In this document: positions 962-63,996 of the stretch, in pieces | Position numbering within the stretch: position 1 is the stretch's first letter | Layout of the letters: the number at the start of each line of letters is the position of its first letter | Assembly: GCA_942159475.1 (NCBI GenBank) | Contig: OW804097.1 | Span: forward strand, 50,736,986 to 50,800,985 | Source of the DNA: Sthenelais limicola | Lineage: Eukaryota; Annelida; Polychaeta; Phyllodocida; Sigalionidae | DNA length: 64,000 bases | Direction: 5' to 3' | Notes under the pieces: generated by a model | Databases searched by the model: none | Told to the model about the DNA's origin: nothing | The model's input: only the letters and a program-made list of their open reading frames with translations | Made by a program: the position numbers and the translations under genes

Positions 962-2350
962 ATGTCAACAGAAATTATGGAATCTTTTTTACCAATAGCA
1001 TCCAAAAAAGGCTTCAATCTTGTCGGGTGGAATATAAGGAGCCTACCCAAAAATTTTAGCAATTTCCAATACTGTTTAGAACAAGCAAAAAATAATATTA
1101 ATGTCATTTGCCTCACAGAAACCTGGCTCCAGCACAAAGTGCATGCAAATACGTATCAGGTTGATGATTATGTGCTGGTCAGGAAAGACAGGCCAGGTAA
1201 GAAAAGAGGGGGAGGCCTCTGTATGTATATTCACAAAATGCATGAGGTTGATCCTGACACTTATAACAATTTATCAATAATGAGCATAGATATAGAATCA
1301 CAGGTTGTAAACGTAACAAAAGATCGAATGAAATCTTATACAATTGTCAATTTATATAGGCCACCAGGGGGCCAGATTAATGTATTCCTGGAAAAAATAG
1401 ATGAATTACTCTCTCAAATAAGCAATACACACAAAGTAATAGTCACTGGAGACCTAAACATTGATCTATTGGATACAAATACATCTGCCATTAGAATCCA
1501 CGAACTCCAAACTATCTTTGAAAAATATAACCTAATCCAATATATCAAGACCCCGACTAGAACCACCATATCATCCAAATCACTATTAGACCATATATAT
1601 ACTAACTCAAAATTTGTCATGTCCTCTGGTATAATTGAAAATAATTCCTCAGACCATTATCCCACATTTATAACGATAAAAAAAAACAGAACAAAATACA
1701 TAAATAACACATTCAAAGCTAGAAACACAACTAAACTTGACCAACAAATTCTAAACCAAATTCTGATGAATGAAGACTGGTCAGATTTATATAACAATGA
1801 TGATCCTAACTCATGTTGGGAATTAATGATAAATAAAATAACGTACTTCCTGGACAAAATGTGTCCCATACAAAATTTTCACCGAGTCCGGAAGAAACAA
1901 GAGTGGATGACAGTTGAGATCACCTCACTCATGAATGAAAGGGATCGAAAATTCAGAAAAGCAAAAAAAACTGGAGATAAAGATCTATTAATAGAAGCAA
2001 AAGAGCTAAAAAACAGAGTCAATACTTTAACCAGAAACAAAAAATGTTCTATTCTAAAACAGGAACTCACCCTGAATAAGAATAACCCCCGAGCCCTGTG
2101 GAAAACAATTAATACAATAATCAGCCCAGAAAAGAATAAAAATAGCATAGACATACATATATCGGATCCAAACGGAAAGAAAATATGTAAAGACGAAATA
2201 CCAAACGTATTCAATGAATTCTTTTTAGATGTCGGGCCATCCCTTGCAAAGAAAATTCCGGAACCATGGGAAGACGCTAAAAAGACCATGCAGGGAATAC
2301 AATGCCGAAACGGTAGTAAAAATTTAGATACTGTCTTTAGATTTAATTAA
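962..2350 (+). CDS. LINE endonuclease (APE-type), N-terminal part of the EN-RT polyprotein
   Basis: This 462-residue frame encodes the apurinic-like endonuclease that nicks target DNA for target-primed reverse transcription. Visible signatures are GWNIRSL (about residue 22), LTETWL (about 50, with the catalytic Glu), GDLNIDLL (about 163), LLDHIYTN (about 208) and the SDHYP histidine motif (about 230). After this comes the basic, helical linker usual between EN and RT. The frame ends early because of a one-base shift near 2300-2340: the same protein continues in the next frame from about 2340. The start ATG at 962 follows a short leader containing GTTACCGTA, a word also found before the ATG of the related element at 19009. 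EN motifs look intact, but the protein as a whole cannot be made from one frame. Confidence 0.85.
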   Translation: MSTEIMESFLPIASKKGFNLVGWNIRSLPKNFSNFQYCLEQAKNNINVICLTETWLQHKVHANTYQVDDYVLVRKDRPGKKRGGGLCMYIHKMHEVDPDTYNNLSIMSIDIESQVVNVTKDRMKSYTIVNLYRPPGGQINVFLEKIDELLSQISNTHKVIVTGDLNIDLLDTNTSAIRIHELQTIFEKYNLIQYIKTPTRTTISSKSLLDHIYTNSKFVMSSGIIENNSSDHYPTFITIKKNRTKYINNTFKARNTTKLDQQILNQILMNEDWSDLYNNDDPNSCWELMINKITYFLDKMCPIQNFHRVRKKQEWMTVEITSLMNERDRKFRKAKKTGDKDLLIEAKELKNRVNTLTRNKKCSILKQELTLNKNNPRALWKTINTIISPEKNKNSIDIHISDPNGKKICKDEIPNVFNEFFLDVGPSLAKKIPEPWEDAKKTMQGIQCRNGSKNLDTVFRFN

Positions 2351-3896
2351 GCCTGTCTCGCCCAAAGACATTGAAAAATTCATCTCGAAACTAGATCAAC
2401 ATAAGAAATCAGGACTAGATTACATACCGGGAAAAATACTAAAACCGTGCCTGAGAGCCCTTTCCCCACAACTGAGCCACATAATGAATCTGTCCCTCAC
2501 TAAGGCCTCGATACCTGACTCCTTTAAAAACTCTGTGGTCACCCCACTCCATAAAGCTGGACCAAAAAATAGCACAAACAACTATAGACCAATATCGGGA
2601 ATAAGTATGCCCGCGAAAATATTAGAGAAAATTGTACAAAATCAACTATTAAACTACCTGGAAGAAAACCAAATATACTATCCTAAACAATATGGGTTCA
2701 GACAAGGTCACTCAGTCAGTCAAGCCCATATTGACCTCATGGAACCTATTTATAACAACTTAAATGAGGGAAAAATGACGACTGCTGTATTTTTAGACTT
2801 TAAAAAAGCTTTCGATACAGTGCACCACACCAAATTATTAGAAAAATTAGAACAAATAGGAATACGAAACAATGAAAATACATGGTTTAGAAGCTACCTC
2901 TCAAACAGACATCAAAGTGTTAGGGTCAATGGTTCTTTATCAACCCAAGGTAAGATCTCTTTCGGCGTACCCCAGGGAACAATATTAGGACCGATCTTAT
3001 TCTCAATATACATAAATGACTTACACCAAGTCGTACAGAATTCAACAATTCAACACTACGCAGATGACACCGTCCTATTCTGCAGTGACAAAAATGAATC
3101 AATCATCTATCAAAAACTCCAAACAGATCTCGATTGGATAGACACTTGGTGTAAAGCAAACAAAATTTCAATGAATGTAGCAAAAACTCAGTATATTAAC
3201 TTCAAAAAAAGTAATACAAAATTGGCAATAGACCAGAAACATGCTCTTACCCTGGGTGAAGAACCATTATCCCAGGTAAAAGATTACAAGTATTTAGGCC
3301 TCATAATAGATGAGCACCTATCTTTCAAGCAACATGTAAACAAACTGATAGACAAACTACGATACAAAGTGAGACTATTGTCCAGCTCACGTTATATGTT
3401 GACTAAAAAAGCAAAAACAGACATAATCAAAATGTTAATTATCCCCAATATCGATCAAGGGGATATATTCTATTCATCAACCAATAAACACCTGTTAAAA
3501 AGGTTGGATTCGCTGTTAAACTCGGCAATCAGATCCTTACACAATCTCCACAAAAGAGCAAACGTGGTAGAAGAACTAGGGGAGCTAAATATCTTACCAA
3601 ATAATGTAAGGAGGGATGTACATATCCTTGAAAGCGCACACTATTTGGCACAAACTATTTCAAATTTAGATCAAAGAAAATTACCCACCAGAAGCCATTC
3701 GATAAAAAGAAGAAACCTAAAAATTGACCGTCCAAAATTATCATTATACCAAAATAGTTTCTTATACAAAGCAAAAGTGGCCTGGAATTCATTACCAACC
3801 CGAATCCAGGCACTAGAATCAAAAAAGCATTTCAAACAAGAGGTAGAAAAGACTCAAAAAAACAAAAATGATCTTGAAAATAGAGAAAAACAATAA
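2340..3896 (+). CDS. LINE reverse transcriptase, C-terminal part of the EN-RT polyprotein
   Basis: This continues the 962 gene after a frameshift; the frame is open from 2340 although its first ATG is at 2484. RT blocks appear in order: NYRPISGISMPAKILEKIVQ, QYGFRQGHS, FLDFKKAFDTV (motif A), GVPQGTILGP (motif B), HYADDTVLF (motif C, the catalytic YADD), the NVAKTQ block and YLGLIID. A C-terminal region follows with RLDSLLNSAIRSLH and RKLPTRSHS-like words that recur in the related copies. It is the cDNA-synthesising part of the element and acts in an RNP at the target site. All catalytic residues that I can see are present, so the single frameshift is the only obvious lesion. Confidence 0.85.
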   Translation, partial: DLIKPVSPKDIEKFISKLDQHKKSGLDYIPGKILKPCLRALSPQLSHIMNLSLTKASIPDSFKNSVVTPLHKAGPKNSTNNYRPISGISMPAKILEKIVQNQLLNYLEENQIYYPKQYGFRQGHSVSQAHIDLMEPIYNNLNEGKMTTAVFLDFKKAFDTVHHTKLLEKLEQIGIRNNENTWFRSYLSNRHQSVRVNGSLSTQGKISFGVPQGTILGPILFSIYINDLHQVVQNSTIQHYADDTVLFCSDKNESIIYQKLQTDLDWIDTWCKANKISMNVAKTQYINFKKSNTKLAIDQKHALTLGEEPLSQVKDYKYLGLIIDEHLSFKQHVNKLIDKLRYKVRLLSSSRYMLTKKAKTDIIKMLIIPNIDQGDIFYSSTNKHLLKRLDSLLNSAIRSLHNLHKRANVVEELGELNILPNNVRRDVHILESAHYLAQTISNLDQRKLPTRSHSIKRRNLKIDRPKLSLYQNSFLYKAKVAWNSLPTRIQALESKKHFKQEVEKTQKNKNDLENREKQ

Positions 3897-5731: not shown

Positions 5732-6619
5732 TCCCAATACTACTATAAGTTTTTCTGTAATCTAAATTTTAAAAGCAAATGTCAACAAAATATGGCTGCC
5801 ATTTTGACAACGACCAATCATGGCTTCACTGAGAGTTGTTAAATCGTTATTCCAAATTCTTCTACAAGGAAGAAAATATGACATCAGTATAAAGTAATGT
5901 TGTAGCTTTGATGTAACAATTTTTATAATGTATTTCCTCTCATTTAGATATGAAATATTTACATTTGAAATTATGCGTTCGGAGATTACTGTGTCTGTCA
6001 AAAAACTTGTATTTTCATACTAAGTTAAAACAAAAAATAAAAATGTTATTTTATATCCTATGGCATTAATCTACTGTAGACGATTCTGATAAAAAGCATA
6101 GAAAGAGTGATTTATTCCTCAAATGAAGCTATCAAGAGATATTCAAAGTCAAACTTTGGTTTTCAAATGTCGGTCAAATACATAATCTTCATCACATAGC
6201 CTCCTGGCGCCAGAAGAAAAGATTGGGGTGGTTGTGATGTGGACATAAATGTAGTACGTCACCATTTGAAATGGATTCCGTCGTCAATTTGACGTCAGCT
6301 GTAAAGGGCAATGTAGCATAGGGCTTTAAACATTGTCGGTCAAACATTTGAGATGCGTTATCTCTGTCACTTTTTTTCATTTCTTGCTATTTAGTAATGT
6401 TATTTACTCCACGTTGATGTATGTACCACATGCTGTTTCTATGGGCGGGAGTGCGTGTGGTAATGTATCAAGAAATCCACGCGTGAAGGATGGGGCTAGT
6501 AACAAGGGCTCCCATTGGTTGATACAGTCGTATGATCATATTGTTGTCGTCTGCTTGGAACTCCGAGCTTGAATTCATCTGGAACAAAAGTCAAATATCT
6601 GTTAAAAACAGAAAGAAAC

Positions 6620-8104
6620 ATGGATCAAAACGATTTTAGAGTTGATTTTGATATCGGATTTGATCCTTTATTGGAGGAAGAGCCACAAGAATACTTTGTG
6701 AACAGTGTGAAAGACTTGAAACGTTATGTGGACAGTGCTAAAAATAAAAACACTGAGAGAAAGACCTCATTCTCAGTGCGAAGGTTCAATGAGTTTCTAG
6801 CTGATGAAGGCTTCCAAGGAAAGCAAATTGAGGAGTTTCAAGTGGAAGAATTAGATGCTTTGCTAGGCAAATGGATCATGGTTGTAAAAAAGGTGGACAA
6901 CTCTGATTATGAGCCAGATAGTTTGACAGCAATGCACAGAGGTGTTGATCGGTACCTGAGGGATTGTAACTATGCTGGCAACATAATCTCAGGTGATAAC
7001 TTCAAGACCTCACGAAAAGTGTTGGAAACAAGAAGGAAACAGCTTAAAGCACTAGGTTTAGGCAACAAAAGAAATAAATCAGAGGCATTGTCTGAAGAGG
7101 ATGAGGATTTGCTGTGGGTCAATGGAGGGTTAGGATCAAATGAACCTGACGTTTTACAACAGACTGTCTGGTTTTTGGTGGCAAAAAGTTTAGGATTCCG
7201 GGGCATACATGAATCCAGACAATTATCATTTGGGGATTTGGAAAAGAAGGTAGATGAAAAAGGAGCAGTTTATTATGAGTGGACTGAAAAAGTCACAAAA
7301 ACAAGGACGGGGGCTTGCTCAGGAAATGTGCGTCAATTTCAACCAAAGATTTTCCCAAATGTGAACCGAATAGAACGATGCCCCATTCGGTTGATAGCAG
7401 AATTTATTGCAAGACGGCCCGAAATTACTAAACGGCCAGAAAGTCCCTTTTTTTTGCAAACAAACTACAGGAGACTGGCTAGTGACAATGTGTGGTTCAA
7501 AAACCAACCATTAGGGGTAAATTCTATTAGCAATTTCATGAAGGCAATAGCCAAAAGAGGAGGGCTATCAGAGGATCGGCGTGTCACTAATCACTCGGTG
7601 CGAAAGACTTGCTGCTCCAGATTACTTGAAGCAGGGGTTCCCCCAAATGCGGTTGCACAGCTGAGTGGGCATAAGAATGTTGCTAGCTTGAATAACTACA
7701 GTTCCTTAAACATACACCAGCAACGAGCTATGGGTTCTGTCTTAAATGATAGCAGTGGTAAAACAAAGGAAAACATCTTACCTGGTGGGAGATCCCTTGC
7801 TGTCCAGCATGTGGAGAGCCCTAGAGCTGTCATGTCGGCAGCAGGGCCTAGAACTGTCATGCCGGCAGCAGCAGCTAGAGCTGTCATGCCAGCCCTTCAA
7901 TCCAGTGCAAAGTCCAGTGTGGAGAATGCTCAACCCATCTTCAACATCACTAATGCTGGCAATGGTACTATACAGATAATATATGGGGACAAGCCCCAAA
8001 TAAGCAAGGACAATGCCATCACCACAAGCCAACAAATGCTGGCTCCTCCAATGAAGAAATTCCGCCGCATTTTGCCCATTCAGAGTGACACTGACAGTGA
8101 CTAG
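6620..8104 (+). CDS. Crypton-like tyrosine recombinase (DUF3504-type)
   Basis: This is an uninterrupted 494-codon ORF starting at the first ATG in frame (6620); the open frame extends a little upstream without an ATG. An N-terminal helical, core-binding-like half (about residues 30-150) precedes a tyrosine-recombinase catalytic half. The expected residues are visible: Arg in SLGFRGIHE (about 192), His-x-x-Arg in NHSVRKT (about 324-327), a second His in LSGHKN (about 350) and the Tyr nucleophile in NNYSSL (about 358). The family cuts and rejoins DNA through a phosphotyrosine intermediate, and relatives include Crypton elements and domesticated animal genes of the ZMYM/QRICH1/KCTD1 type. The tail (about 400-430) has three degenerate RxVMxAA repeats and is acidic at the end. 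It could be an active element or a domesticated gene; one intact ORF does not decide this. Confidence 0.85.
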   Translation: MDQNDFRVDFDIGFDPLLEEEPQEYFVNSVKDLKRYVDSAKNKNTERKTSFSVRRFNEFLADEGFQGKQIEEFQVEELDALLGKWIMVVKKVDNSDYEPDSLTAMHRGVDRYLRDCNYAGNIISGDNFKTSRKVLETRRKQLKALGLGNKRNKSEALSEEDEDLLWVNGGLGSNEPDVLQQTVWFLVAKSLGFRGIHESRQLSFGDLEKKVDEKGAVYYEWTEKVTKTRTGACSGNVRQFQPKIFPNVNRIERCPIRLIAEFIARRPEITKRPESPFFLQTNYRRLASDNVWFKNQPLGVNSISNFMKAIAKRGGLSEDRRVTNHSVRKTCCSRLLEAGVPPNAVAQLSGHKNVASLNNYSSLNIHQQRAMGSVLNDSSGKTKENILPGGRSLAVQHVESPRAVMSAAGPRTVMPAAAARAVMPALQSSAKSSVENAQPIFNITNAGNGTIQIIYGDKPQISKDNAITTSQQMLAPPMKKFRRILPIQSDTDSD

Positions 8105-10932: not shown

Positions 10933-11428
10933 ATGAAACCAAAACGTGAATGCAACACTAAGATTGTAATTCTTGAAGATCACACAGAACTTACTGATGA
11001 AATAATAGCAGACGAAGCACTGAAATTACTACAAATGGCCGACAGAGATTTTACTGCTGAAGATATACAAGAAGTGTATAGAATAGGTCTACCAGAAGAA
11101 GGCAAAAACAGACCTATCCTCCTCTGCCTTGAGGATTCAGACAACAGAAAATTTCTGGTCGATAACATTAGGAAGATAAACAACACTCACGATGATTACT
11201 CAAGAATCTGGATTAACGACTCTGGACTTTAGATCTTCCCCCATCAAAAACCAATATTACAAAACTGTCTTGCCTTACTAAAAAAGAACAACCATACGGC
11301 TGAAATCTACTACAATCATATTTTGTTCGACAATCGTTCCTACTCTATTGAAGACCTATATGCCTTACCTGAGGGGTGCACTCCAGTAGATGCGTCGACC
11401 ATTTCCATAGATCAAGGTAAATCTATTG
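10933..11428 (+). pseudogene. Left half of a split LINE ORF1-type gene (RRM-like plus CTD)
   Basis: This frame carries the nucleic-acid-binding core seen in L1-type ORF1 proteins: an RRM-like part with the EVYRIG word (the same position reads SYRIG at about 63350 and AYRVN at about 13330), then a C-terminal domain containing YNHILFDNRSYSIEDLYALP. An in-frame TAG at 11230-11232 breaks it between the two parts. The frame then runs into a 13-bp target duplication at 11416-11428, where the L1/Tx1-like element begins. The missing end of the gene resumes in the same frame at 18379 and encodes a NADAR domain. A coiled-coil N terminus is not seen, so the gene is also 5'-truncated or decayed. It is the older host of the nested insertion. 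Confidence 0.75.
11416..11428 (+). repeat. Target-site duplication, left copy
   Basis: GGTAAATCTATTG here is repeated exactly at 18379-18391, immediately after the poly(A) tail. If the two preceding A bases are counted, the match is 15 bp. This marks the insertion point of the L1/Tx1-like element. Confidence 0.95.
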
Positions 11429-12442
11429 AGGGACTTCCGCCTAGATTTAGAAGGAACAAGACGTACCGGAGCGTGCTCCACTAATTTTTCCTTTTTTTCA
11501 GGTCCGGAAAGAGAATTTCTTCTCAAAAAGTTGTAGAAAAGTGTATAAGACGAACAATTATCAGCCTACAGCCAGAAAAAGCGAATCGGAATAAGCAAAA
11601 AAGTGTTAGAAAGAATTTTAGCCTTTGCCGCTTCAAATCCAACGGACCTTAACCCGCGAGGGATTATCGCCCACTGGAGGGATTATCGTGAACACTAGAA
11701 ACTCTATCTGGAGAAAGGATAAACCCCAAACTGAAGGAATTATAAAAGGACTTACAAAGACAGTAACAAATGATACCTAGCCAAGGATGCAACAGGTGAA
11801 TTTTAGACATTACAAACAATTCCGATAATCCAAAAGGGTAAGGATCACAGACCATTTAGCCAATCTCATCCCGTACCGAATGAGGAAGCTAATCGCCTAA
11901 TACCTTCGGAAAATACGGAAAAAAGCAATACGGCAACTGGTTACAAAGTGGGAAACAAATATATATGTTCAATAAGGAGAATAAAATCTAACAATCTTCT
12001 TCAGCATAAACCTCGTGACAGCAAGCTAATTAAGTAGGTCAGTTCGCCAGGAGGCTAGCCATTTTGTTTATACCTACGGGGTCTCCTGACCGCTGGTCAA
12101 GCACGGGCCGTCTAATCTAGATAACCAACGACCCAGCGACAAGCTAGCACAGGCCGAGTCGAGGACGCCATCAAAACCGGAATCGTGACCAAAGTAAGCA
12201 AAAGCAACGAATGAAAACTAACTTCACATCTAAATACTGTTACTCTAAACTCTGGAACAGCGGGATTAATCTTGACAATTCATAATAATTGCAAAAACAT
12301 TGAAAATCGAGTTGCAAAATATCAAAATAAAGTAACCGGAAGCTCCTTCCGCCATCTTACCGGAAGCCAGGTAAAGGTAAAATAACATTGTAACGCTATA
12401 GCAAGAAACCGTAACTACCTGGTTCAACGCACCTTTCCCGCT
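11429..12442 (+). promoter_or_regulatory. 5' UTR and presumed internal promoter of the L1/Tx1-like LINE
   Basis: About 1 kb of noncoding sequence lies between the element's first base and the ORF1 ATG. L1-superfamily elements need an internal promoter here, but I see no TATA box in a convincing place. It contains several short GC-rich patches (about 12040-12130) and a pyrimidine tract followed by AG at about 11485-11500 that could be read as a splice acceptor. Confidence 0.6.
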
Positions 12443-14194
12443 ATGAGCACGGCCCCAACTAGTAAGGCCCAGGGAGAGAAAAGGAGAAATACTGATTCAG
12501 AAGAGGGGTCGGAATTAGAAACCAAAAAGAAAAAACAAACAAGGAGCACAATGGCTGGAGACAAATCGGGTGAGGGAAGTAAAGGAAACAGAGTAATAAA
12601 ATCGGCTGCCAAAAATAAAAATGTGAAAACGACCGAGAAGAAAGACAAAATAGCTGAACCTGCGGAAAAAATCCCTAACGAAGAACTAATGGAAGAGGAA
12701 CAGGTGGATCTCGACGAATCAGACGAGAAAAGTGGTAGTGAGAACAACTCCGATGAAGAGTTAGACCTGGAAGGAGATGTCGTAAAAATAGTCTCCACAA
12801 TGGCATCTGAACAGAAAGAAAGTAATCTCAAAGCGGAAAAGAGGATGGATAAACTACAAAAAATCCTAAACTCCATGAAGGCAACGATAAACACTCAAAA
12901 TGCAGCTATCGCTGAAAATACCCAAGAGTTTGGAGTGGTGAGAGAAGAAATAAAAACAGCTAAAAAAGAAGTCAAAGAGGATACCATAGAACAAGTCGAT
13001 AAACTGAGGCAGGAAATTATCGATGACAATGAAGAAAGAGATACTGACATAGCTGACGTAAAAAAAAGAATGAATGTCCACGAAAAGGACATGAAGGCCA
13101 TGCAAGAAGTAATCGCGACAACCAAAGACACAGATTATACCAGAAACAGAAGAGAAAGAATCAATGAAGATGAGGCCTTCATCCAAAATGAGTCTAAAAA
13201 ATTAGAAAACAACTTATTATTCGTTGGGGTTAAGACAACCCTAAATGAATCACAACCAGAACTGGATGAAAAGGTCACAAACATACTGACAGATAATCTA
13301 GGGCTCGAACACATGTTATACAAGAAGGCCTACAGAGTCAATTGGAAACAAGATGCCCCAATTAAAGTAGAGTTTTTCGCGGCCTTAGATGCGGACAAAG
13401 TGTGGGAATTAAGACCCAGACAGAAAAAGACCACCCTAAAAGAAGAGGGAATGGAAGTAACAGAGAAGGAAGAAAGAGGCTTTGGCATCAAAAGAGACAC
13501 ACCGTTAATCCTCCGCCAACGATACAACAGAGTCAAAATGATCGCAGATGCAGCGGACAAGAAAGGGTTCGAACATAAAATTATCAGAGGAGGAATAATA
13601 ATCAACAGAGTGACATATAGGCACGACCAATTAGAAGGTGTACCCACCGAACTCCTTCTCTCTCAGCTAAGCAAAAGAGAAGATGAGAATACGGTTGTAT
13701 TCTTTACTTGCAACAGCCCTCTTTCAAACCACTATAGGGCTCCTTTTGCTATCGATCAGCACAGGTTTGAAAACGTGGAGCAATACTTATTCTACAGGAG
13801 AGCTAAAATAGCAGAAGATCCAGATAAACCTGCCATGGCCCTCAAAACCCTAGACCCAGTCGAATGCAAAAAATTCATGGGAGCTCTAACTGCCAACGTG
13901 GAAATATGGGAACAACACAGGTTAGAAATAGTAACAAGAGCATGCAAGGCCAAGGCTAAATATCACGAACAAGTGAGAGACTTCCTAAGGTTAACAGGAG
14001 ATCGTAAAATCGGGGAAGCTTCCAACAATAGAGAATGGGGCATTGGTATGGGGTTAAATAACCCTGAAGTGCTCAACACAACCCTGTGGCCCTCACAAGG
14101 AAATATTATGGGCAAAGCCTGGATGGCCGTCAGGCAGAAGTTAAGCAGAAGTGAAAAAGATCTGATGCAGGAAGATGCCGAGGACTCCGAGTAA
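12443..14194 (+). CDS. LINE ORF1 protein: coiled coil, RRM-like, CTD and C-terminal NADAR domain
   Basis: This intact 583-residue protein has a charged N terminus with a lysine cluster (about 28-33), a long heptad-rich helical region (about 115-250) and an RRM-like domain starting at NNLLFVGV (about 255-345). A small C-terminal domain follows (to about 405). This is the RNA-binding trimer architecture of L1-type ORF1p, which packages the element RNA. Unusually, residues about 414-570 form a NADAR/YbiA-like domain: SPLSNHY near its start, NVEQYLFY with the conserved Glu, LTGDRKIGEAS, EWGIGMG, and a final GNIMGKAWMAVRQ. These are the signature blocks of the whole NADAR fold in order, so it looks complete. 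NADAR enzymes cleave N-glycosidic bonds of ribosylated or ADP-ribosylated substrates. Its job in a LINE RNP is unknown to me; removal of ADP-ribose from element nucleic acid is an inference. Confidence 0.88.
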   Translation: MSTAPTSKAQGEKRRNTDSEEGSELETKKKKQTRSTMAGDKSGEGSKGNRVIKSAAKNKNVKTTEKKDKIAEPAEKIPNEELMEEEQVDLDESDEKSGSENNSDEELDLEGDVVKIVSTMASEQKESNLKAEKRMDKLQKILNSMKATINTQNAAIAENTQEFGVVREEIKTAKKEVKEDTIEQVDKLRQEIIDDNEERDTDIADVKKRMNVHEKDMKAMQEVIATTKDTDYTRNRRERINEDEAFIQNESKKLENNLLFVGVKTTLNESQPELDEKVTNILTDNLGLEHMLYKKAYRVNWKQDAPIKVEFFAALDADKVWELRPRQKKTTLKEEGMEVTEKEERGFGIKRDTPLILRQRYNRVKMIADAADKKGFEHKIIRGGIIINRVTYRHDQLEGVPTELLLSQLSKREDENTVVFFTCNSPLSNHYRAPFAIDQHRFENVEQYLFYRRAKIAEDPDKPAMALKTLDPVECKKFMGALTANVEIWEQHRLEIVTRACKAKAKYHEQVRDFLRLTGDRKIGEASNNREWGIGMGLNNPEVLNTTLWPSQGNIMGKAWMAVRQKLSRSEKDLMQEDAEDSE

Positions 14195-14237
14195 TATGCC
14201 TGTCATAAAATGAACAAGACGTCTTCCAACCTTCGAA

Positions 14238-17200
14238 ATGGAAGGTAAATGGGCAGATAACAACAAAACTTCCCTAAGGCTAGTCTCGCTCAATATAAAT
14301 GGTTTTAATAATTCCTTGAAGAGAAAACATATATTAGATGAATATAGACAATGGCCTAATACGATCGTGGCCTTGCAAGAGACACATTCCAAACCTACCA
14401 TAGAAAAGATCTGGAACACTCAATGGCCAGGCGAAATAAAATATTCGCATGGAACATCCGCCTCAAGAGGAGTATTACTATTGGTATCTAAAGATTTAAA
14501 AAATAAAATAACAAATGAGGGTAAGGACAGTGACGGTAGATGGCAGTATATAATAATTACCTGTGAAAAAGTGAAAATGTGTATAATGAATGTATACGCG
14601 CCAACAGCAGACTGCCCCAAAGACCAAAAAACCCTGTGGAAAGAGCTATCAAAATGTATGGATAAATTGAAATATGACCAGTGTGTAATAATGGGTGACT
14701 TTAATGTTGATCTGTCTAACAAAAAAACCTCTAAAGTAAGCAAAGAGCTGTCTTATTTTGTAATCGAACAAGACCTGTCCGATATAATAGCAGAAAGAGA
14801 AAATGGTAACCCCCCTTATACATGGGAAAGAAATGAGCAGGAATCTCGTATAGATTATATTTTTATATCTAAAAATTTGATAAGCAAGGTGGAGTTAAAT
14901 GAAACAAATTCTACCCCTCACTCAGATCATAAAGAAACAAGAATAATGCTTCATACGGGTGCTCAAGGTAGGGGTAGAGGGTATTGGAAAATGAATTCGG
15001 CCCTCCTCGAAAATGATCGCTTTATTGCCAAAATTGAAGAGTTATGTAGAAATGCTGTAAATGATAATCTTAACCCCAAATTAACGTGGGAATTCTTCAA
15101 ATTAAAAGTTAGGGAAGAGGCCATAGCAATATCTAGCCAAATGGCGAAAGAAAGAAGAAAAAGTGTACTAGATAGAAATAACAGATTGAATGTTCTCGAC
15201 AGAAAAAAAAGGCTTAACATTGAAGAACGGCATGAAAAAAATGAGCTACTTGAGCAAGCTAGAGAATATGATTTAAATAAGGCAGAAGGAGCCCTAATAA
15301 GGTCCAAAGCCAAATGGGCAGTTGAAGGAGAAAGACCTTCTAAGTTCTTTTGCGCCCTTGAAAAATACAGAGGAGAAAAAAAAGTTATAAACACCTTAAA
15401 CATCGAGGGTAAATTATCCGATTGTCCCAAGAAAATACTCGAGGAAGGTCATAATTTCTATTCTGAACTGTATTCTAGTAAATGTGTCAACCGCAAAGTG
15501 GCGGACGAGTTTACAAATCGACAGCAATTTGTCCAGTTAGATGAGACTGATAATGGAATATTATGTGAAGAAATAACAGAGCCTGAAGTTGAAAAAATTG
15601 TAAAACAAATGAAGAAAAACAAATCACCTGGTTGCGATGGTTTTACTGTGGAGTTTTTCCAGAAATTTTGGTACACCATAAATGACATGTTCATGAATAT
15701 GCTTCATCAATGCTTGGGAGAGGGAGAAATGACAGAGAACCAAAAACGTGGCATAATTAGTGTTATTCCAAAGAAAGGGAACGACCCCTCTTACATAAAA
15801 AATTGGAGACCCATCACCTTACTCAATGTCGATTATAAAATTATATCAAAAACAATAGCCTCAAGGTTAAATCTCTTTCTCCCAAGCATAATACATGAGG
15901 ACCAACTTGGCTTTGTGAAGGGAAGGTTCATTGGAACCGCTATTCGAAAAATCGATGACATTATTTCTTATCTTGAACACGAAAAAGAGAGTGGTATTAT
16001 TGCATCTCTAGATTTTACCAAAGCCTACGATTCCATAGAGTGGTCCTTTTTAAGGAAAGCAATGGAAGCACACAACATTAGCGATTTATTCATAGGTTGG
16101 ATAGAAACTCTTTTTAAAGGTTCCAAGGCGACTTTCATGAACAATGGATTCTCTTCTCAATGGTTCTCGGTGAACAGAGGGATGAAACAGGGTGACCCCC
16201 TATCATCCTCTCTGTTCACCATCGTTATTGAAAAACTTGCTGAAAATATTAGGAAAAATAATGATATACTAGGGATAAATCTTGCGGATTCTCAAACTAA
16301 AATCACCCAATTTGCGGATGATATTACAATTTCTGTAAAGGACGAAAAGTCCTTATTATGCGCTATTGAATGTGTAGAATCCTTTTCCCTAGCCTCAGGC
16401 CTTTGCCTGAATAAGACCAAATCTAATGGTTTCCTAATAGGAGAAATAAGTGTAACAAGTGAAAAAGTAAAAGAAATTAAGTGGGTCAGCTCGATGAAAA
16501 TCTTGGGAGTTACTTTACTATACCCAAGAAATGAAAAAGAACTTAGAAAAATAAATAGCGACGATATTATAGTAAAGGTGAGAAAGGTTATAGCTCAATG
16601 GAAGTGTAGATCTCTAACCATGAAGGGACGAATTCTTGTCTGCAACGTGTTTTTATTACCCTTGTTTCAACATTCGCTGTCATGTATATCCTTTGATAAA
16701 GCCGTGTTACAAGAAATTAATGAAATAATGCTCAACTTTGTATGGAAAAATGGATCGCATAGAATTGGTGTGGCCTTTTTGGCCCAGAAAAGTGATAATG
16801 GAGGATTAGGTTTACGCTTAATAAATGAGATATATGAGGCTAATAGAATAATGTGGGTGAAAAGAATCATGCATGGAGGTAACAGCACGTGGTACAAGTC
16901 CCTAGAAGCCTTTCATGGTAGAAAAGTGGATAATATACTATTATCTAGATATAAACCAACCAATGCTTTGAACGAATTCTATGCCGACCTATTCAGATTG
17001 TGGAATAGACATTATTACAAGCACGAGCCTACAGAGCCTGCTCAGTTGTTCAAAGAAAGACTATGGTGTAACAGATTTATAAAAGACAAAAAGCGGATGA
17101 TATATTATAAGAGTTGGGAAGATCAAGGCATTACTGCCATAGGTGACCTTATAAAAGAGGATGGTTCTTTCATGTCTACCACGGAAATTAGTCTTAACTA

Positions 17201-18038
17201 CGAGTTCAGACCCTCCTTTTTCGAGAGGATGTCGATTAAAAATGCCATACCCAAAAAATGGTTAAGGGTCATTAAAGAAACAGCAGGGGTACAAATAAAA
17301 AACTCCGTTGATTTTTATGTTAATGGTACCGCCTTAAACCTCATAAGCTGCAATGCAAAAAATATATATTGTGAATTAATTAAAAAAAGGAAGATGGAGA
17401 GAGAAAAGTTTGATGAGTGGCAAAGGTTATTAGATATGGACGATAACCAATTTGATCAGGTGGACTGGAAAAAATGCTTTTCGTTACCATATAAAGCCAC
17501 AACAGAAACTAGATTGCAAGAACTTCAATTCAAGATTCTTCATAAAATAATTACATGTAACGTGCACCTAAAAAATATTAGAATCATCAACTCTCCAGGG
17601 TGTAACTACTGTAATCTAAAAGATGACATCGTCCATTTCTTTGTCAAATGCAAACTTAATACTAACATATGGCAGAATATTTTGAGATGGATACATGAAG
17701 TAGGGTACTTAAATACAAACAAAAGAGGTAAAAACCTTGTGTCTGTGAACAAAGGTAGAATGGTAGTAGTTCTTCAAGATATAATGTTTGGTTTTGAAGG
17801 AGACGAACAATGTGTAAAAATTATAAATTGGATTGTCCTGCAGGTCAAAGCCATAATACATAGGCAAAGGTTGTTCGACCAAGGTAAAATAAATGTATTA
17901 AATGTATTTTCCGAGCTCAAAATGAGATGCAATGTAACTCTCTATTCAATTTCAACCTGTGTAGCCCAGAGAGAAAAAAAGGCAATGTGGAGAAGGCTTA
18001 AAGATGACATACAAGAAAAAATCGACAGTCTAAAATAA
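14238..18038 (+). CDS. LINE ORF2 protein: APE endonuclease and reverse transcriptase, Tx1-like
   Basis: This intact 1266-residue polyprotein cuts target DNA and reverse-transcribes the element RNA. Endonuclease motifs: LNINGFNN (about 18), ALQETHS (about 45), GDFNVDLS, SRIDYIFIS and SDHKETR (within the first 240 residues). Reverse transcriptase motifs: NKSPGCDGF, NWRPITLLNVDYK, DQLGFVKGRF, ASLDFTKAYDSIEW (A), RGMKQGDPLSSSLF (B), QFADDITI (C, about 692) and MKILGVTL. Near residue 1121 there is a CNYC...H...C zinc-binding-like motif (C-x2-C-x7-H-x4-C) of the kind found at the C terminus of Tx1 and plant-type L1 proteins. It follows ORF1 by 43 bp, so translation probably depends on reinitiation. 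All catalytic residues that I can check are present, so it is a candidate for a functional enzyme. Confidence 0.93.
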   Translation: MEGKWADNNKTSLRLVSLNINGFNNSLKRKHILDEYRQWPNTIVALQETHSKPTIEKIWNTQWPGEIKYSHGTSASRGVLLLVSKDLKNKITNEGKDSDGRWQYIIITCEKVKMCIMNVYAPTADCPKDQKTLWKELSKCMDKLKYDQCVIMGDFNVDLSNKKTSKVSKELSYFVIEQDLSDIIAERENGNPPYTWERNEQESRIDYIFISKNLISKVELNETNSTPHSDHKETRIMLHTGAQGRGRGYWKMNSALLENDRFIAKIEELCRNAVNDNLNPKLTWEFFKLKVREEAIAISSQMAKERRKSVLDRNNRLNVLDRKKRLNIEERHEKNELLEQAREYDLNKAEGALIRSKAKWAVEGERPSKFFCALEKYRGEKKVINTLNIEGKLSDCPKKILEEGHNFYSELYSSKCVNRKVADEFTNRQQFVQLDETDNGILCEEITEPEVEKIVKQMKKNKSPGCDGFTVEFFQKFWYTINDMFMNMLHQCLGEGEMTENQKRGIISVIPKKGNDPSYIKNWRPITLLNVDYKIISKTIASRLNLFLPSIIHEDQLGFVKGRFIGTAIRKIDDIISYLEHEKESGIIASLDFTKAYDSIEWSFLRKAMEAHNISDLFIGWIETLFKGSKATFMNNGFSSQWFSVNRGMKQGDPLSSSLFTIVIEKLAENIRKNNDILGINLADSQTKITQFADDITISVKDEKSLLCAIECVESFSLASGLCLNKTKSNGFLIGEISVTSEKVKEIKWVSSMKILGVTLLYPRNEKELRKINSDDIIVKVRKVIAQWKCRSLTMKGRILVCNVFLLPLFQHSLSCISFDKAVLQEINEIMLNFVWKNGSHRIGVAFLAQKSDNGGLGLRLINEIYEANRIMWVKRIMHGGNSTWYKSLEAFHGRKVDNILLSRYKPTNALNEFYADLFRLWNRHYYKHEPTEPAQLFKERLWCNRFIKDKKRMIYYKSWEDQGITAIGDLIKEDGSFMSTTEISLNYEFRPSFFERMSIKNAIPKKWLRVIKETAGVQIKNSVDFYVNGTALNLISCNAKNIYCELIKKRKMEREKFDEWQRLLDMDDNQFDQVDWKKCFSLPYKATTETRLQELQFKILHKIITCNVHLKNIRIINSPGCNYCNLKDDIVHFFVKCKLNTNIWQNILRWIHEVGYLNTNKRGKNLVSVNKGRMVVVLQDIMFGFEGDEQCVKIINWIVLQVKAIIHRQRLFDQGKINVLNVFSELKMRCNVTLYSISTCVAQREKKAMWRRLKDDIQEKIDSLK

Positions 18039-18378
18039 CAACTAGAATTGCCTCCAACTGGTGTCTACCCTTGCCTTCTCCGCAAGGCCCAACCTCGATA
18101 GCTCGTTCCATTATATATAAGCCCGAAAATTCCAAAGGTGCTGCCACCTGAGGACAAACGGTGAAAGCTCTTACCCGAAAGAATCAACACTATCGCCATC
18201 TAGCGTTTATGTTTCGCAACTAGCGGACCCACATCTATGGTGCCAAAAAATAATCGCATGTTGTTTCCTACCTGAATTTTCCTTTTATGTACGATTACCC
18301 TGCCCATCATATATGTCAATGTCGGAAATAAAATATTTTGCAAAAACAAAAAAAAAGTTAAAAAAAAAAAAAAAAAAA
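18039..18378 (+). terminator. 3' UTR and poly(A) tail of the L1/Tx1-like LINE
   Basis: A short 3' UTR contains AATAAA at about 18327-18332, soon followed by an interrupted A-rich run that ends in 18 uninterrupted A (18361-18378). The tail abuts the second copy of the 13-bp target duplication. This is a poly(A)-type LINE end, unlike the microsatellite tails of the CR1-like elements nearby. Confidence 0.9.
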
Positions 18379-18391
18379 GGTAAATCTATTG
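18379..18391 (+). repeat. Target-site duplication, right copy
   Basis: This is an exact repeat of 11416-11428. It directly follows the 18-A tail and directly precedes the resumed host reading frame. Confidence 0.95.
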
Positions 18392-18828
18392 GCTACTATG
18401 GGGAACACTCCTACATGTCTAATTTCTTTCCATGTGAAGTTGAACATAAGGACATAACATTCAAATCGGTCGAACATGCCTACCAGTGCCTGAAGGCAGA
18501 GAGCGCGGGAGCGACCAAAGGCGCTTGTGACCGTATCAAAGAAACAACATCGGCATACGAGGCAAAATACCTTACAAGAAACCTCGTTCCGTCCAAAATA
18601 TTCCAGGATAAAGAAGAAAATCTCCTTACTGAATTAATTAACAAGATGTTCGATCAAAATGTGAATCTAAGCGAGAAACTAAAAGCAGAAAAATACGACA
18701 AATTCTACAAGGTAACTCTCAGGCGGAAATGGGGAGCCGGCTACAGATTCCCAGACTTGTCAACTGAACCGCATCATATATCTTCTCGCCGAATCTCAAT
18801 GTCACTTATTATCTTAGCAACTAGCTAA
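18379..18828 (+). pseudogene. Right half of the split ORF1-type gene: second NADAR domain
   Basis: Starting with the right copy of the target duplication, this frame matches the frame of the left half (10933-11428) and encodes a NADAR domain. Visible blocks are GEHSYMSNFFPC, FKSVEHAYQCLKA (with the conserved Glu), a middle helical part, and KWGAGYRFPD near the end. The final NADAR block (N-x-LG...R) is absent; the frame drifts into unrelated residues before the stop at 18826-18828. The second CR1-like LINE begins just downstream and may have removed or displaced the end. An artificial ATG within the LINE tail (18313) opens the frame through the poly(A), which is not meaningful. The domain order RRM-CTD-NADAR therefore existed in the older element too. 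Confidence 0.82.
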
Positions 18829-19008: not shown

Positions 19009-19491
19009 ATGACTCAAGAAGTCATGAATTCCTTCGCACAGTTTAAAAATATCAAAGGTTTTAATCTGATAGGCTGGAATATCAGAAGCCTAACAAAAAA
19101 TTTCAATGACCTCCAGCAATCTATTACTCAATCAGATAACAAAATCAATGTCTTATGCCTATCAGAAACATGGCTACATCCTGACATCCATGACAACCTT
19201 ATCCAACTGGATGGGTACAAGCTGGTGAGACAGGACAGAAGAAATAAGAAACGTGGAGGTGGGTTGATCACATACATTCAGGACGATCACCAAATCGATT
19301 CTGACTCTTTTGCCTGTCTCTCCCTGTCAAATGATAATATTGAAACTCTAGTCCTTAAAATTAGAAAAGGTAAATCTAAGCCATACATTATTGTTAACAT
19401 ATACAGGCCTCCGAGCTCTCCTGTTAAATCAGGACTAAAAGAAATCGATGAGTTATTATCAAAACTAGACTATACTATGCTTGTGATGTAA
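19009..19491 (+). CDS. LINE element B endonuclease, first part
   Basis: The first 160 residues of the EN domain: GWNIRSLTKNF near the start, LSETWLH with the catalytic Glu, KKRGGG and VNIYRPPS. The start ATG at 19009 matches the position of the element A start. A one-base shift near 19480 moves the remaining EN (VIVTGDLNIDLS onward) to another frame, so this ORF alone is a fragment. Confidence 0.75.
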   Translation: MTQEVMNSFAQFKNIKGFNLIGWNIRSLTKNFNDLQQSITQSDNKINVLCLSETWLHPDIHDNLIQLDGYKLVRQDRRNKKRGGGLITYIQDDHQIDSDSFACLSLSNDNIETLVLKIRKGKSKPYIIVNIYRPPSSPVKSGLKEIDELLSKLDYTMLVM

Positions 19492-20363
19492 TTGTCACTG
19501 GCGACCTAAATATCGATCTATCTGATGTAAACGGCCCCTCTGGTGGTGGTGTATTGGATTTACAGGCTATATTTGATAAATATGGCCTGGCACAACACAT
19601 TACCCTTGCTACTAGGAGGACCTTGACCTCATCCACTCTCATTGATCATATGTACACTAACTCAAAAAATGTAACAACAGCTGGTATAGTGGAAAATTCA
19701 GCTTCCGACCACTACCCTACATACCTAACCCTTAAAAAAAACAGAAACAAGTATGAGACCGGTACTTTCGATGCTAGAAATACTAGGTTCCTCGACCAGA
19801 GAATCCTAAACGAAATATTAAAAGAGCAAAATTGGGAAGAATTCTACTATAGCTCCGACCCAAATATTTGCTGGAATATAATGCTAGAGTTTATCATGAA
19901 ATTTGTGGACAGAATGTGCCCTGTACAACGGTTCCACAGAGTTAGAAGAAAAGAGAGTTGGATGACTCCTGAAATTACAACACTAATGAATAACCGAGAC
20001 AAATTGTTCAAAAAAGCTTTTCGAACCAAGAGTAAAGATCTCCTCATTGAGGCGAAAGAACTAAGAAATAAAGTTACCTCTCTCTGCAAAAAAACTAAAC
20101 TACTTTATATTAGAGACATGCTCCATAAAGATAGAGCTAATCCTAGAGCAGTTTGGAAAACTATTCGAACTGTTTTAAGTCCAGATAAGTTGAAATCGAA
20201 TGATACGATTCACTTAATTGACCAGAACAATGAAAATGTCAATGAATTGGATGTTCCCAACCTATTTAACAACTTCTTTTTAGGCGTTGGACCAACCCTG
20301 GCCAATCAAATACCTGAACCAGATCCAGCATCTGCTGATTTGATCAGAAATCGTCTAGAAGGT
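19485..20363 (+). CDS. LINE element B endonuclease, second part and linker
   Basis: This resumes the EN domain in a new frame with GDLNIDLS, STLIDHMYTN and the SDHYPTY histidine motif, followed by the basic linker that precedes RT (RFHRVRRKESWMTPEI and similar). It aligns along its length with 1445-2330 of element A. It is interrupted at 20364 by a 113-bp antisense insertion that brings a stop codon at 20394-20396. Confidence 0.75.
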
Positions 20364-20476
20364 ATGTATGTATGTATCAATTTTATTTCCAAATAACAGT
20401 TACATTGACTTGGAAAAAGGGGAGAAGCTACAACTTAGCCCTCTCTTTAGCTCCTTCTGTGAAATATTCATTTCTC
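20364..20476 (-). mobile_element. 5'-truncated LINE tail inserted antisense into element B
   Basis: Read on the minus strand, this 113-bp piece ends in GGAAATAAAATTGATAC followed by ATAC repeats, the shape of a LINE 3' terminus. It is flanked by AGGT on both sides (20360-20363, 20477-20480), a plausible 4-bp target duplication. The element B reading frame is the same before and after it. It is a nested, dead-on-arrival insertion. Confidence 0.75.
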
Positions 20477-20480
20477 AGGT

Positions 20481-22064
20481 CTTCCAGGTATCCCTGAAGG
20501 TAGAAGAATTTACGATAACTTTAACTTCGAACCAATCAACCAAAATGACTTATTCAAGATAATTAAAGATATTAACCCACACAAAAACTCGGGGGTTGAA
20601 TCATTACCAGGGAAAATATTGAAAGGTTGTTTCCTTGCTCTAATCCCCCAACTATCCCACTTGATGAATTTGTCCTTGTCAACCAGTGTAGTGCCTGATG
20701 CCTTCAAGACCGCAGTGGTGACCCCGCTCCACAAAAATGGCTCAAAAAACACACCAAACAACTTCAGACCGATATCAGGCATCTCAATGCCAGCCAAAAT
20801 TCTCGAAAAAATTGTTCAAAATCAGCTATCAAATTATATGGAACTTAATGACATCTATTACAAAAAACAATATGACTTTAGATCTGGTCACTCAGTCGAA
20901 CAAGCTCATATTGATTTCTTGTCACCCATTTATGAGCATATAAATCAGAGTGAGGCTGCCACTGCGGTCTTCTTAGACTTTAAGAAGGCGTTCGACACTG
21001 TTAGCCATGATATTTTATTGCAAAAACTAGAAAAAATTGGTATCTGTAACAATGAAAATTTATGGTTTAAAAACTATTTGTCAGGTAGAACCCAAACTGT
21101 ACGAGTCAATGGACTAAAATCTTCCTAAGGTAAGATTACTTTCGGTGTTCCTCAAGGAACAATTTTGGGCCCTATCCTGTTTACAATCTATATAAACGAT
21201 ATGCATCAGGTTGTAAAAAACTCTACAATCCAGCACTACGCTGATGATACCGTTTTATTTATTGGCGATAAGAAAAACGAAAATATCTCAAAAAAACTCC
21301 AAGAAGACCTTAACCTTATCGACACCTGGTGCAAATCAAACAAAATTTCTATGAACGTCTCCAAAACAAAATATATGAACTTCAAAATTTCCACAAGAAA
21401 AACAGGCATTGATCCTGATGTCCACAATCTTACCCTGGGTACAGAACCGATACTCAAGGCCGATGAATACAACTATCTAGGTCTAATAATTGACCAGAGA
21501 TTGTCATTCAAGGAACAGGTAATTAAGGTTATTAACAATGTGAAATGGAAGGTTAAACTTCTAGGCCGTGCCCGTTATATGTTAACAAGAAAAGTAAAAA
21601 TTGATATTGTCAAAGCTTTAATTATTCCACTTATCGATAGAGGGGACATGTTCTATTCAAGTACGAATAAACATCTTGTTAACAGGTTGCAATCTCTCCT
21701 GAATGCTTCAGTGAGATCAGCCCTGAACATTAATAAAAAACAAAACGTGGAGAATGAACTCCGAAAAATAAAGATTCTGCCGAACAATGTACGAAGAGAA
21801 ATCCATCTCCTTGAATGTGCCCACCATTTGGCTAAGAATGAATCGAACCTTGATCTAAGAAAATTACCTACCAGAAGCCATTCTGCTGGCAGAAAAAATC
21901 TTAAAGTCATTAAACCTAGGTTGAGTTTCTATCAAAACTCATTTCTCCATAGAGCACGCTTAGCTTGGAACACTCTTGAAAAAGATCTACAAAATCTAGA
22001 ATTAAAAAGGGAATTCCGAATGAATGTCAAATCTAATTTAATGACCAAGATCAATCCAAAATAG
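20481..22064 (+). CDS. LINE element B reverse transcriptase (one in-frame stop)
   Basis: RT blocks in order: NFRPISGISMPAKILEK, HSVEQAHIDF, FLDFKKAFDTV (A), then a TAA at 21126-21128 where element A has a sense codon (CAA for Gln). The same frame continues with GKITFGVPQGTILGP (B), HYADDTVLF (C) and YLGLIIDQRL, and runs to the C-terminal RKLPTRSHS word. The stop falls between motifs A and B, so no complete RT can be made. It is otherwise well preserved. Confidence 0.8.
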
Positions 22065-24540: not shown

Positions 24541-24942
24541 CTGAAACTACAAGCCAAGCACTATATCCCTTTTGAGACATCTAACCAATCAAAGCTACCC
24601 CTATTTATAAGTACATCGCGAGAGATCCGAGTAATTAGAGTAACTCCGTAATCCATTAGTAATAATCCCTGATTGTAGTGTCTACGCTCTACAGACATTA
24701 ACAGAGGCTAGTTATGTCTGGTCACATTATTTTATCAGTCAAGTCAAAATCATGAAACATATTATTTCGATTTTGCGTGATTCAATATCAGGAAAAAGGA
24801 GAGATAATACTTTCGATTTTTAGGGTCATCATAGTAGTAAAGAGATCTTATTCTATTTCTAAAATATACTTTCGTTTGGACCTTTAGCATTCTGAAGGGT
24901 TTTCTTCATTTGTATTTTTTTCATTTGTTTTCTTTTTTTTTC

Positions 24943-49225: not shown

Positions 49226-49418
49226 GTGATAGATTCATGAATGTATGTATAATTGTTTAGTGGGACTTTCGTCCACCCTCTCCCTGTTGGCTACTGTTGA
49301 GCCACCGTACTGTTGGTCATGGTTAGGGGCAACGACTCCTCACTTGAACTGTTGGCGCGAATACTGGCGTCAGTGCATGGTAGCCATATTGGCGATCGGT
49401 CAAGAAAAATTTTTTCTT
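49226..49418 (+). repeat. Split direct repeat A1
   Basis: About 193 bp, matching A2 (53221-53415) from GTGATAGATTCATG to the CGGTCAAGAAA...TTTTTTC end. The copies differ by a few substitutions and small indels. Confidence 0.92.
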
Positions 49419-49568
49419 CGGATAATCCAGATTGACTCATGTCTCTTGTATTGCTTGAGATCCCATCTAGAGCCAACCTGTTGGATCCGTGAAAGTCAAA
49501 AAGATAACCGATTGTCTACAGATCGTGTAGTGCCTGAATTTACAGATCGTGTAGTGCCTGCATTTACA

Positions 49569-62167: not shown

Positions 62168-63690
62168 ATGGAAAATCCAAGTAGTGATGAGGAGGCTTAC
62201 TTCGATGCAAAACCACTTCAAGAAAAGAAACAACAAGATAGTAAAATCACCGAGCGAACAAAATACGCTTCTCATGAAAAGTCATCAGAAAAAGGAAAAA
62301 CGCAAGTACCCATCATTCAGAACTTTGATAGTATTGCTAATTTTATAACAGACATTGTGCGAAAGGCTTGTGAAAAACTGTCAGAAAACATGTCGAGCAT
62401 TGACAACAGGCCACGCCCATGGGTAACAACTGAGATTCAAGAAGCCCGCCAAGAAGATCCAGGCACGCGCAGGCCCCTGGATGTAAGCGCAAACGTTCCA
62501 TGTGCAGATCCAGGCACGCACCGGCCCCTGGATGCATGCGCAAACGTTCACCGCGCAACTCCAGCCGATCAAACTAGCGAAGCGAGTCTGAACGAACGTA
62601 AAGATCCGCCATTGCTAATGGAGTTGTCAAAAACAACATTTGTAGAATCTATGATAGAGACTATCACCGAAATTGTCACGGAAAAAGTAACTCTAGAAAT
62701 TGCTAAACATTTTGGCGATAACATCAATGCCTTTCCTATTAGCCAAACGTCCATCAGACTGAACAAAATAGAGACCCAAATTCGTGGAATAAATTCAGAG
62801 TTACTTAGGCAAAGCTCCGGTGTAAAAAGTCCTCCTAAATTCCAAACTAAACTTGACGAAATAAGCGATTCAGCGAATAACACCTTTGCTGAAATTAATC
62901 AGAAAATCTCAAAAATTGAAAAGAATATTGGTGAAGATGGAGATAGAATAAAGCAGGCGATTTTAGTTCGTGAAGAGGTAATCCCAGCTCTTGAATCTGA
63001 AATATCGAACATGGCTAGTTTCTTGCAAGGTCTCATTGATACGAATAAAGGGAAAATTACAGCCCTTGAGTCTGAAAGAGCCTCAATTGAGAGTATGGTG
63101 CAAAAGACCCAAAATAATATCGATGAATATAATCGCAAAGAAATAATGAAACCGCCTCAGGAGGAAACTCTTTACCTGGTGATAGAAGGAATAAATGAAG
63201 CTTGGATGGATGACGAGGGGGAACCCTTGAAATCAATTACAAAGAACAGCGATATTTACGGGCATGGTGAAGTCACAAGCAACACAATAACAAATATGCT
63301 ATTCACTATAGATCAGACCTTTCAATATGAATACATAAAGAAATCATATCGTATTGGAAGAGCTAGGATTCATGATAAAAGGCCAGTGTACATCGAGTTT
63401 GACACTACTGAACGGAAGAAAACGGTGATGGCGAATGCTAAGAAATTGAGATCGAACAAAAGATACGGGAAGGTTTGGTTTAACAAAATGGGCACGAATA
63501 GAGAGGATGGAAACTATGAATTACTTCGTAGCTGCCATACTTTATTATTATCGAAGAGAAAAACAGCCGAATTTGTGTTGAACCATATTAGATGGGGTGA
63601 TCGCTCATACACAGTGCATGACCTACATTTATTGCCTTCTGGAGACCCGAAGACGCTATGGCAACAGTCGTGGACGGGGAAGAGATTGGA
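62168..63690 (+). CDS. LINE ORF1-type protein: coiled coil, RRM-like, CTD
   Basis: The ATG at 62168 starts a protein with a charged N terminus, a 17-residue in-frame repeat (DPGTRRPLD...), a long helical coiled-coil region (about residues 190-325), an RRM-like domain (LYLVIEGINEAW to KSYRIGRARI and PVYIEFDT, about 335-425) and a C-terminal domain (AEFVLNHIRWGDRSYTVHDL, about 455-490). This is an RNA-binding ORF1p layout. The frame goes on to 63796, but after about 63660 the residues are out of phase: a NADAR domain continues in the next frame. The relation to the split gene at 10.9 kb is visible in the CTD (NHI...DRSY...DL...LP). Confidence 0.8.
62456..62557 (+). repeat. 51-bp in-frame tandem duplication in ORF1
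   Basis: Units 62456-62506 and 62507-62557 encode two 17-residue copies (DPGTRRPLDVSANV..., DPGTHRPLDACANV...). The period is exactly 51 bp, so the frame is kept. It lies in the linker before the coiled coil. Confidence 0.9.
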
Positions 63691-63996
63691 CTCGGATTTA
63701 AAGGAGAACACAGTATATGTTCAAATTTTTATCCAACTAAATTTTTCTATGAAAATATCGCCTATTCATCATCAGAGCACTGCTTCCAATCGATAAAAGC
63801 AAAAAGTGCTGGGAAAATTCAACTCGCCGAACACATACGGAAAGTGGCGAGTCCGGTAGTCGCCAAGAGGCTCGGCGAACAGGTGACTGTCAATGCCGAA
63901 TGGGAGGAAAAGGAAGAATCTCTACTTGAAAAAATCGTAAAATGGCAGGATAAGGAATATATTACTTGTCGAGCAGAAAGCTTCCAAATACTTTGA
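63658..63996 (+). CDS. NADAR domain of the right-edge LINE ORF1 (frameshifted continuation)
   Basis: Visible blocks are GFKGEHSICSNFYPTKF and SSSEHCFQSIKAKSAG with the conserved Glu, then a helical middle part (VAKRLGEQVTVNAEWEEKEE). This matches the first two thirds of NADAR and mirrors GEHSYMSNFFPC...VEHAYQCLKAESAG at 18.4 kb. It begins in the +1-type frame relative to ORF1, overlapping it by about 140 bp, so a small indel near 63660 probably split one protein. The ATG at 63658 may be incidental. The end (CRAESFQIL, stop) looks out of phase, hinting at another lesion, and the window ends here. Confidence 0.75.
   Translation: MATVVDGEEIGLGFKGEHSICSNFYPTKFFYENIAYSSSEHCFQSIKAKSAGKIQLAEHIRKVASPVVAKRLGEQVTVNAEWEEKEESLLEKIVKWQDKEYITCRAESFQIL

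Follow-up and report, generated by a model that had tools for sequence, protein, structure and literature searches.

A LINE of the L1 superfamily (element A), located on the forward strand of the 64,000-nucleotide stretch of DNA analyzed here (the window), carries a type II ORF1p with a C-terminal NADAR domain, as judged from its sequence and a predicted structure. Element A is a further case of the LINE ORF1-NADAR kind already noticed in an oyster.

Element A and the domains of its ORF1p

Element A spans 6948 bp (11429..18376, +) between the two copies of a perfect 15-bp repeat (AAGGTAAATCTATTG) at 11414..11428 (+) and 18377..18391 (+). The repeat was identified as a target-site duplication because the joined flanks give a single frame that is open across the site. 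The duplication and the A-rich 3' end, which extends up to 18376 and blurs the exact position of the 3' border, are both features of L1-superfamily elements. A leader (11429-12442, +) is followed by ORF1p (583 aa, 12443..14194, +), consisting of an N-terminal part, an RRM, a CTD and the NADAR domain, and by ORF2p (1266 aa, 14238..18038, +), an open reading frame with an endonuclease and a reverse transcriptase (Pfam Exo_endo_phos, E 2.2e-14; RVT_1, E 5.9e-43). The match of ORF2p to human L1 ORF2p (E 9.9e-92 over residues 11-868) places the element in the L1 superfamily, where it is probably a Tx1 LINE. With both ORFs open over 6948 bp and a perfect duplication, the element is intact, appears to be young and may be active. 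The RRM and CTD of ORF1p (approximately residues 251-404, 13193..13654, +) have the fold of human L1 ORF1p, the chains of which were matched by the AlphaFold model in Foldseek and VIA-align; the model is poor over one stretch of the RRM (model residues 78-109). The RRM-like domain and CTD described earlier are thus supported by fold, whereas a crude heptad score weakly suggests the coiled coil described with them (approximately residues 99-210).

The NADAR domain (residues 424-567, 13712..14143, +) was identified by Pfam PF08719 with 73.6 bits against a curated cut-off of 35.1 (E 3e-20), and the match covers nearly the whole domain (profile positions 10-162 of 163). A search with phmmer against solved structures connected ORF1p to the Phytophthora NADAR 8bau (E 2.9e-9), and a control HMM of 88 rows, from which retroelement proteins were excluded, matched the domain at E 5.2e-23. 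The score for NCBIfam TIGR02464 also exceeds its cut-off (77.1 vs 73.7), but the aspartate lying three residues ahead of the conserved tryptophan, D130 in 8bau numbering, is an asparagine in element A (N529), and the domain was therefore not filed as a riboflavin-intermediate N-glycosidase (the TIGR02464 equivalog). AlphaFold modeled the NADAR part of ORF1p with block means of pLDDT 91-97, and Foldseek and VIA-align matched the predicted domain with two NADARs of known structure, 8bau and 2b3w, indicating a YbiA-like fold. Profile search and predicted fold agree with the initial annotation in both the presence of a complete NADAR at the C terminus of ORF1p and its coordinates; two further LINE-linked NADARs in the window were missing from that finding.

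A chance match, an assembly join, or a host NADAR gene lying beside a LINE would be an alternative explanation for the fusion. It is extremely improbable and for practical purposes refuted by the Pfam match, the fold, the single uninterrupted ORF within a duplicated target site, the ten other proteins and one fragment that share the architecture, and the reversed window, in which the HMM without retroelement rows gave zero matches at E <= 10.

In comparisons of the element A ORF1p with nine relatives, conservation is highest in the NADAR, with a mean identity of 33.3% (29.7-38.3) against 18.3% for the RRM, 18.0% for the CTD and 14.3% for the N-terminal part; the low RRM and CTD identities may partly reflect misalignment. 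When the nine relatives are compared with one another (36 pairs), conservation of the NADAR (49.8%; RRM 41.7%) falls below that of the CTD (54.3%), so that the NADAR excess belongs to the deep comparison.

Active-site residues

The active-site residues were mapped on 8bau using the numbering of PMC11543638, and all 11 residue letters agreed. Element A keeps E43 (E446), K75 (K476), W89 (W489), R93 (R493), E125 (E525) and W133 (W532), including both glutamates that contact the distal ribose in the Phytophthora NADAR (E446 and E525). Altered are K50 (R453), R79 (G480) and D130 (N529), which counts against catalysis, and the positions of Y84 and D86 are occupied by A and V. E525 represents the last-strand glutamate of the YbiA subfamily (E125 of 8bau), in the place of the last-strand aspartate of DarT1-associated NADAR antitoxins. 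The glutamate of a C-terminal M-E-V-R motif, which is missing in element A, was considered as the catalytic residue and rejected, as the 8bau mapping assigns this role to E525.

In an alignment of 48 rows, position E43 is a glutamate in 47 of 47 readable rows, and E125 is a glutamate in 45 of 47 (H in P0017 and K in the degenerate element B). K50 is a lysine in 44 of 48, with an arginine in element A and its nearest relative P0012 and a methionine in P0020 and P0025. Within the clade formed by the element A ORF1p and P0002-P0013 both glutamates are present in every readable row (12/12 for E43, 13/13 for E125), and W89, W133 and K75 are each kept in 13/13. According to the available part of PMC11543638, E43 (ribose) and K50 (phosphate) are largely conserved over the NADAR superfamily, and the K95R variant of the E. 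coli C7 enzyme was active in vitro yet failed to rescue cells. Element A thus combines an intact E446 with the change (K50 to R453) that in the C7 enzyme preserved activity in vitro and abolished rescue in cells. The D130 position appears to be one of four residues critical in YbiA, and by spacing D130 and W133 would correspond to D343 and W346 of the nematode protein SNA-3, where, in the part of the SNA-3 study available, a triple change that includes both impaired function, with a folding effect allowed for by the authors.

Taken from the residues, catalytic activity of the element A NADAR is possible but not certain. The idea put forward in the initial annotation, a LINE ribonucleoprotein with its own de-ADP-ribosylating activity, is plausible in that the fusion is real and the active site has not lost either ribose glutamate, and it is weakened by the substitutions at the K50, R79 and D130 positions.

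LINE-linked NADARs and their origin

A six-frame HMM scan of the window identified three NADARs (elements A, B and E) and no others at E <= 1, and the HMM without retroelement rows found only the same three at E <= 10. Element A is inserted inside ORF1 of an older, different LINE (element B): the joined flanks form the end of the element B ORF1, with its RRM and CTD before 11428 and its NADAR from 18391 on. The RRM/CTD part (10981..11428, +) contains one in-frame stop and is homologous to the ORF1 of element E over 10981-11376; the C-terminal NADAR (18391..18768, +; Pfam E 8.7e-9), split from its own RRM/CTD by element A, is degenerate at its end. Downstream, the ORF2 of element B is broken into four ORFs (19009..22064, +) that share 49-71% identity with the ORF2 of element C (962-3896), while only one of the four pieces matches the element A ORF2, at 25%. 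Element B is not considered L1-like because the N-terminal ORF of its relative element C has zero matches among solved structures at E <= 0.001 and the element C reverse transcriptase has only distant ones, R2 and L1, near E 1e-15 to 1e-12. It may instead be kin to the CR1/L2 (Jockey-superfamily) LINEs, a clade name that we assume. Element E encodes an ORF1 of 542 aa (62168..63796, +), the RRM/CTD part of which has its homologue in element B (27-44% identity between the two ORF1s). Its NADAR lies in a different frame (63622..63993, +; matched part approximately 63697-63939; Pfam E 4.8e-9) from the preceding ORF1 and is truncated near the window end.

Additional LINE ORF2s, relatives of the element B ORF2, are located at 962-3896, 30276-33224 and 39614-40228, and the six-frame scan detected no NADAR beside them. 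Other mobile elements in the window include a tyrosine-recombinase ORF at 6569-8104 (DUF3504, E 2.3e-22; Phage_integrase, E 4.7e-13), which we take to be Crypton-like, and an LTR-type pol with partial reverse transcriptase, RNase H and integrase at 24910-27201, presumably Gypsy-like. In the region 49245-53038, which is assumed to be DIRS/Ngaro-like, a weak Phage_integrase match (E 4e-4) comes after a reverse transcriptase piece (51210-51869). Three long ORFs in succession at 56426-60371 resemble, by eye, the DNA polymerase of a large DNA transposon; apart from one C2H2 finger match just below the cut-off they gave zero Pfam matches at E <= 0.01.

A profile search of 5.8 billion proteins, in which 4600 candidates were scored, returned 25 matches (P0002-P0026). 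Eleven of these (P0002-P0012, 223-548 aa) contain a NADAR, preceded in ten by an ORF1-like N-terminal part; the exception, P0009, is a 223-aa fragment that retains the CTD end and the NADAR. P0013, P0014 and P0024 are fragments of the ORF1p-NADAR kind, the latter two without the NADAR stretch. P0016 is an ORF1-like protein of the esterase type in which the NADAR is located between a GDSL esterase and a zinc knuckle, with an N terminus that by eye is PHD-like. P0020 and P0025 also hold a NADAR, with a zinc knuckle seen by eye only in P0020 and matched below the cut-off in P0025; the predicted structure of P0020 (pLDDT 33) was left unused. The remaining matches (P0015, P0017-P0019, P0021-P0023 and P0026) consist of a NADAR alone and are 143-189 aa long. 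Since the longest contigs comprise only 572-6568 bases, the 17 ORF1-like proteins are assigned to retroelements by their architecture. A protein search with the whole element A ORF1p gave one match (7990 candidates sharing the most words were scored), and a search with the NADAR domain alone gave zero matches among eight candidates. Zero relatives were found in viral contigs searched with ORF1p and with the profile (2 and 41 stretches, respectively) or in bacterial and archaeal genomes searched with the ORF1p profile (56 stretches).

A phylogenetic analysis was conducted with 48 NADARs, including every fourth of the bacterial loci (20/80) and leaving out P0014, P0024 and cellular animal NADARs. 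Element A and P0002-P0013 form one clade (100/96), within which element A is grouped with P0012 (98/90), and this clade is located on the side of 8bau and bacterial, mostly Bacteroidota, NADARs. The NADARs of elements B and E form a pair (95/91) and P0016, P0020 and P0025 a group (99/95), both of which fall with YbiA across a 99/95 split from the element A clade. In a topology test, the groups of which were named after the tree had been seen and which includes long branches (winE, P0021, P0023 and 2b3w), a single origin of all retroelement NADARs (the three groups together) had a log-likelihood lower by 17.2 (p-AU 0.0375), and none of the two-group unions was rejected (p-AU 0.109 for A+B, 0.117 for A+C and 0.444 for B+C, the letters denoting groups of the test). 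The tree therefore favors, but does not prove, that LINEs captured NADARs more than once.

Possible functions and known systems

That ORF1-NADAR fusions occur in two distinct lineages of LINEs hints at a recurrent means of protecting element RNA. According to the available parts of the sources, every NADAR assayed took ADP-ribose off guanosine in RNA, which none of the assayed macrodomain and ARH-like enzymes did (PMC11833690), guanine-ADP-ribosylated DNA is a NADAR substrate (PMC11543638), the nematode NADAR protein SNA-3 is required for spliced-leader trans-splicing, and animal nidoviruses as well as other RNA viruses encode NADARs within their polyproteins (PMC9503650); what NADARs do in eukaryotes, including animals, is described as unclear (PMC11125620). 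The action on RNA and DNA, the role of SNA-3 and the viral NADARs together point to a substrate on RNA and underlie the mechanism proposed here. Drawing on the domain and its fold, the glutamate pair, the intact element and the recurrence beside other ORF1s, the explanation preferred here, to which we give slightly less than an even chance, is that an ORF1p-tethered NADAR removes ADP-ribose from the RNA or cDNA of an intact L1-superfamily LINE. ORF1p would coat the element RNA, as L1 ORF1p trimers do, and thereby place many NADAR domains along it. Host or foreign ADP-ribosyltransferases would attach ADP-ribose to guanine bases of the LINE RNA or first-strand cDNA, and the NADAR would cut the N-glycosidic bond and so keep the template readable for reverse transcription. 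Counting against this, no host ADP-ribosyltransferase acting on LINE RNA is known to us, and none appears among the literature matches listed, which include the available part of PMC4441479.

The alternatives differ in what the domain would act on and in whether it acts at all. A binding module, which would either recognize RNA or protein bearing ADP-ribose or dock the LINE ribonucleoprotein on the host RNA-processing machinery, would fit the three altered ligand positions (R453, G480 and N529) and the available account of SNA-3, which contacts the SL1 snRNP and CBC-ARS2 and does not conserve the catalytic residues in its first NADAR; against it speak the two ribose glutamates, which no readable row of the ORF1p clade has lost, and the failure of SNA-3 upon mutation of residues homologous to catalytic ones (subject to the folding effect mentioned above), and we consider it somewhat unlikely. 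The destruction of soluble molecules, either ADP-ribose-derived or ribosylated products of host immune enzymes or intermediates of the riboflavin pathway, is improbable: although the TIGR02464 score is above its cut-off and soluble substrates were proposed for phage NADARs in a virus survey (PMC9503650, in the part available), the fusion with an RNA-coating protein suggests a substrate on the ribonucleoprotein, and the same survey favors macromolecular targets for the NADARs of eukaryotic RNA viruses.

A similarly low probability is given to a passenger domain that has no function at present and persists only because it was captured recently. The departures of element A at three ligand positions and the degenerate or out-of-frame NADARs of elements B and E agree with such a passenger, but the state of the latter two says little, since element B has decayed in both ORF1 and ORF2 and the frame change in element E precedes its NADAR, and the element A NADAR is full length, in frame and the best-conserved part against distant ORF1ps. 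A broader and more doubtful explanation can tentatively be considered: NADARs may have been captured repeatedly by RNA-coating proteins of unrelated animal retrotransposons (the type II ORF1ps of L1-like and CR1/L2-like LINEs, a PHD-esterase ORF1 and a zinc-knuckle ORF1-like protein), which would imply that ADP-ribosylation of nucleic-acid bases is a standing anti-retroelement defense in invertebrates and that the elements encode an eraser of their own. With its NADAR tethered to ORF1p, an intact retroelement such as element A offers a bounded test of whether base ADP-ribosylation hinders retrotransposition and whether the domain relieves it, and three LINE-linked NADARs in one window together with NADARs in ORF1-like, esterase and other proteins constitute a pattern that can be surveyed.

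The initial annotation left it in doubt whether the fusion had been described. The available part of PMC12477816 already mentions that the ORF1s of several Crassostrea gigas Tx1 LINE families in Repbase appear to hold YbiA-family NADARs, for which a role in the processing of RNA intermediates is suggested. Among the matches listed from the open-access literature, no other report of a LINE ORF1-NADAR and no account of NADARs spread over several ORF1 kinds was found. The oyster elements, known here by description only, resemble element A as L1-superfamily LINEs that appear to have the domain in ORF1. The Ectocarpus Gypsy elements described in the same source are likewise retrotransposons with a captured NADAR; they are LTR elements with the domain in Pol, whereas that of element A is located in an RNA-coating ORF1p. 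The CR1/L2 LINE ORF1ps with an esterase or a PHD (types III and IV) share with element A an extra ORF1p domain and a modular evolution (PMC4120745), and the word NADAR is absent from the available main text on these types. The DarT1-associated NADAR antitoxins have the fold family and an E88-type glutamate in common with element A but carry an aspartate where element A has E525 and are paired with a DarT toxin. The NADARs of nidoviruses and other RNA viruses (PMC9503650, as far as the available part describes them) also belong to a replication protein of an RNA-based replicator, in their case a virus polyprotein and in element A the ribonucleoprotein protein of a retroelement.
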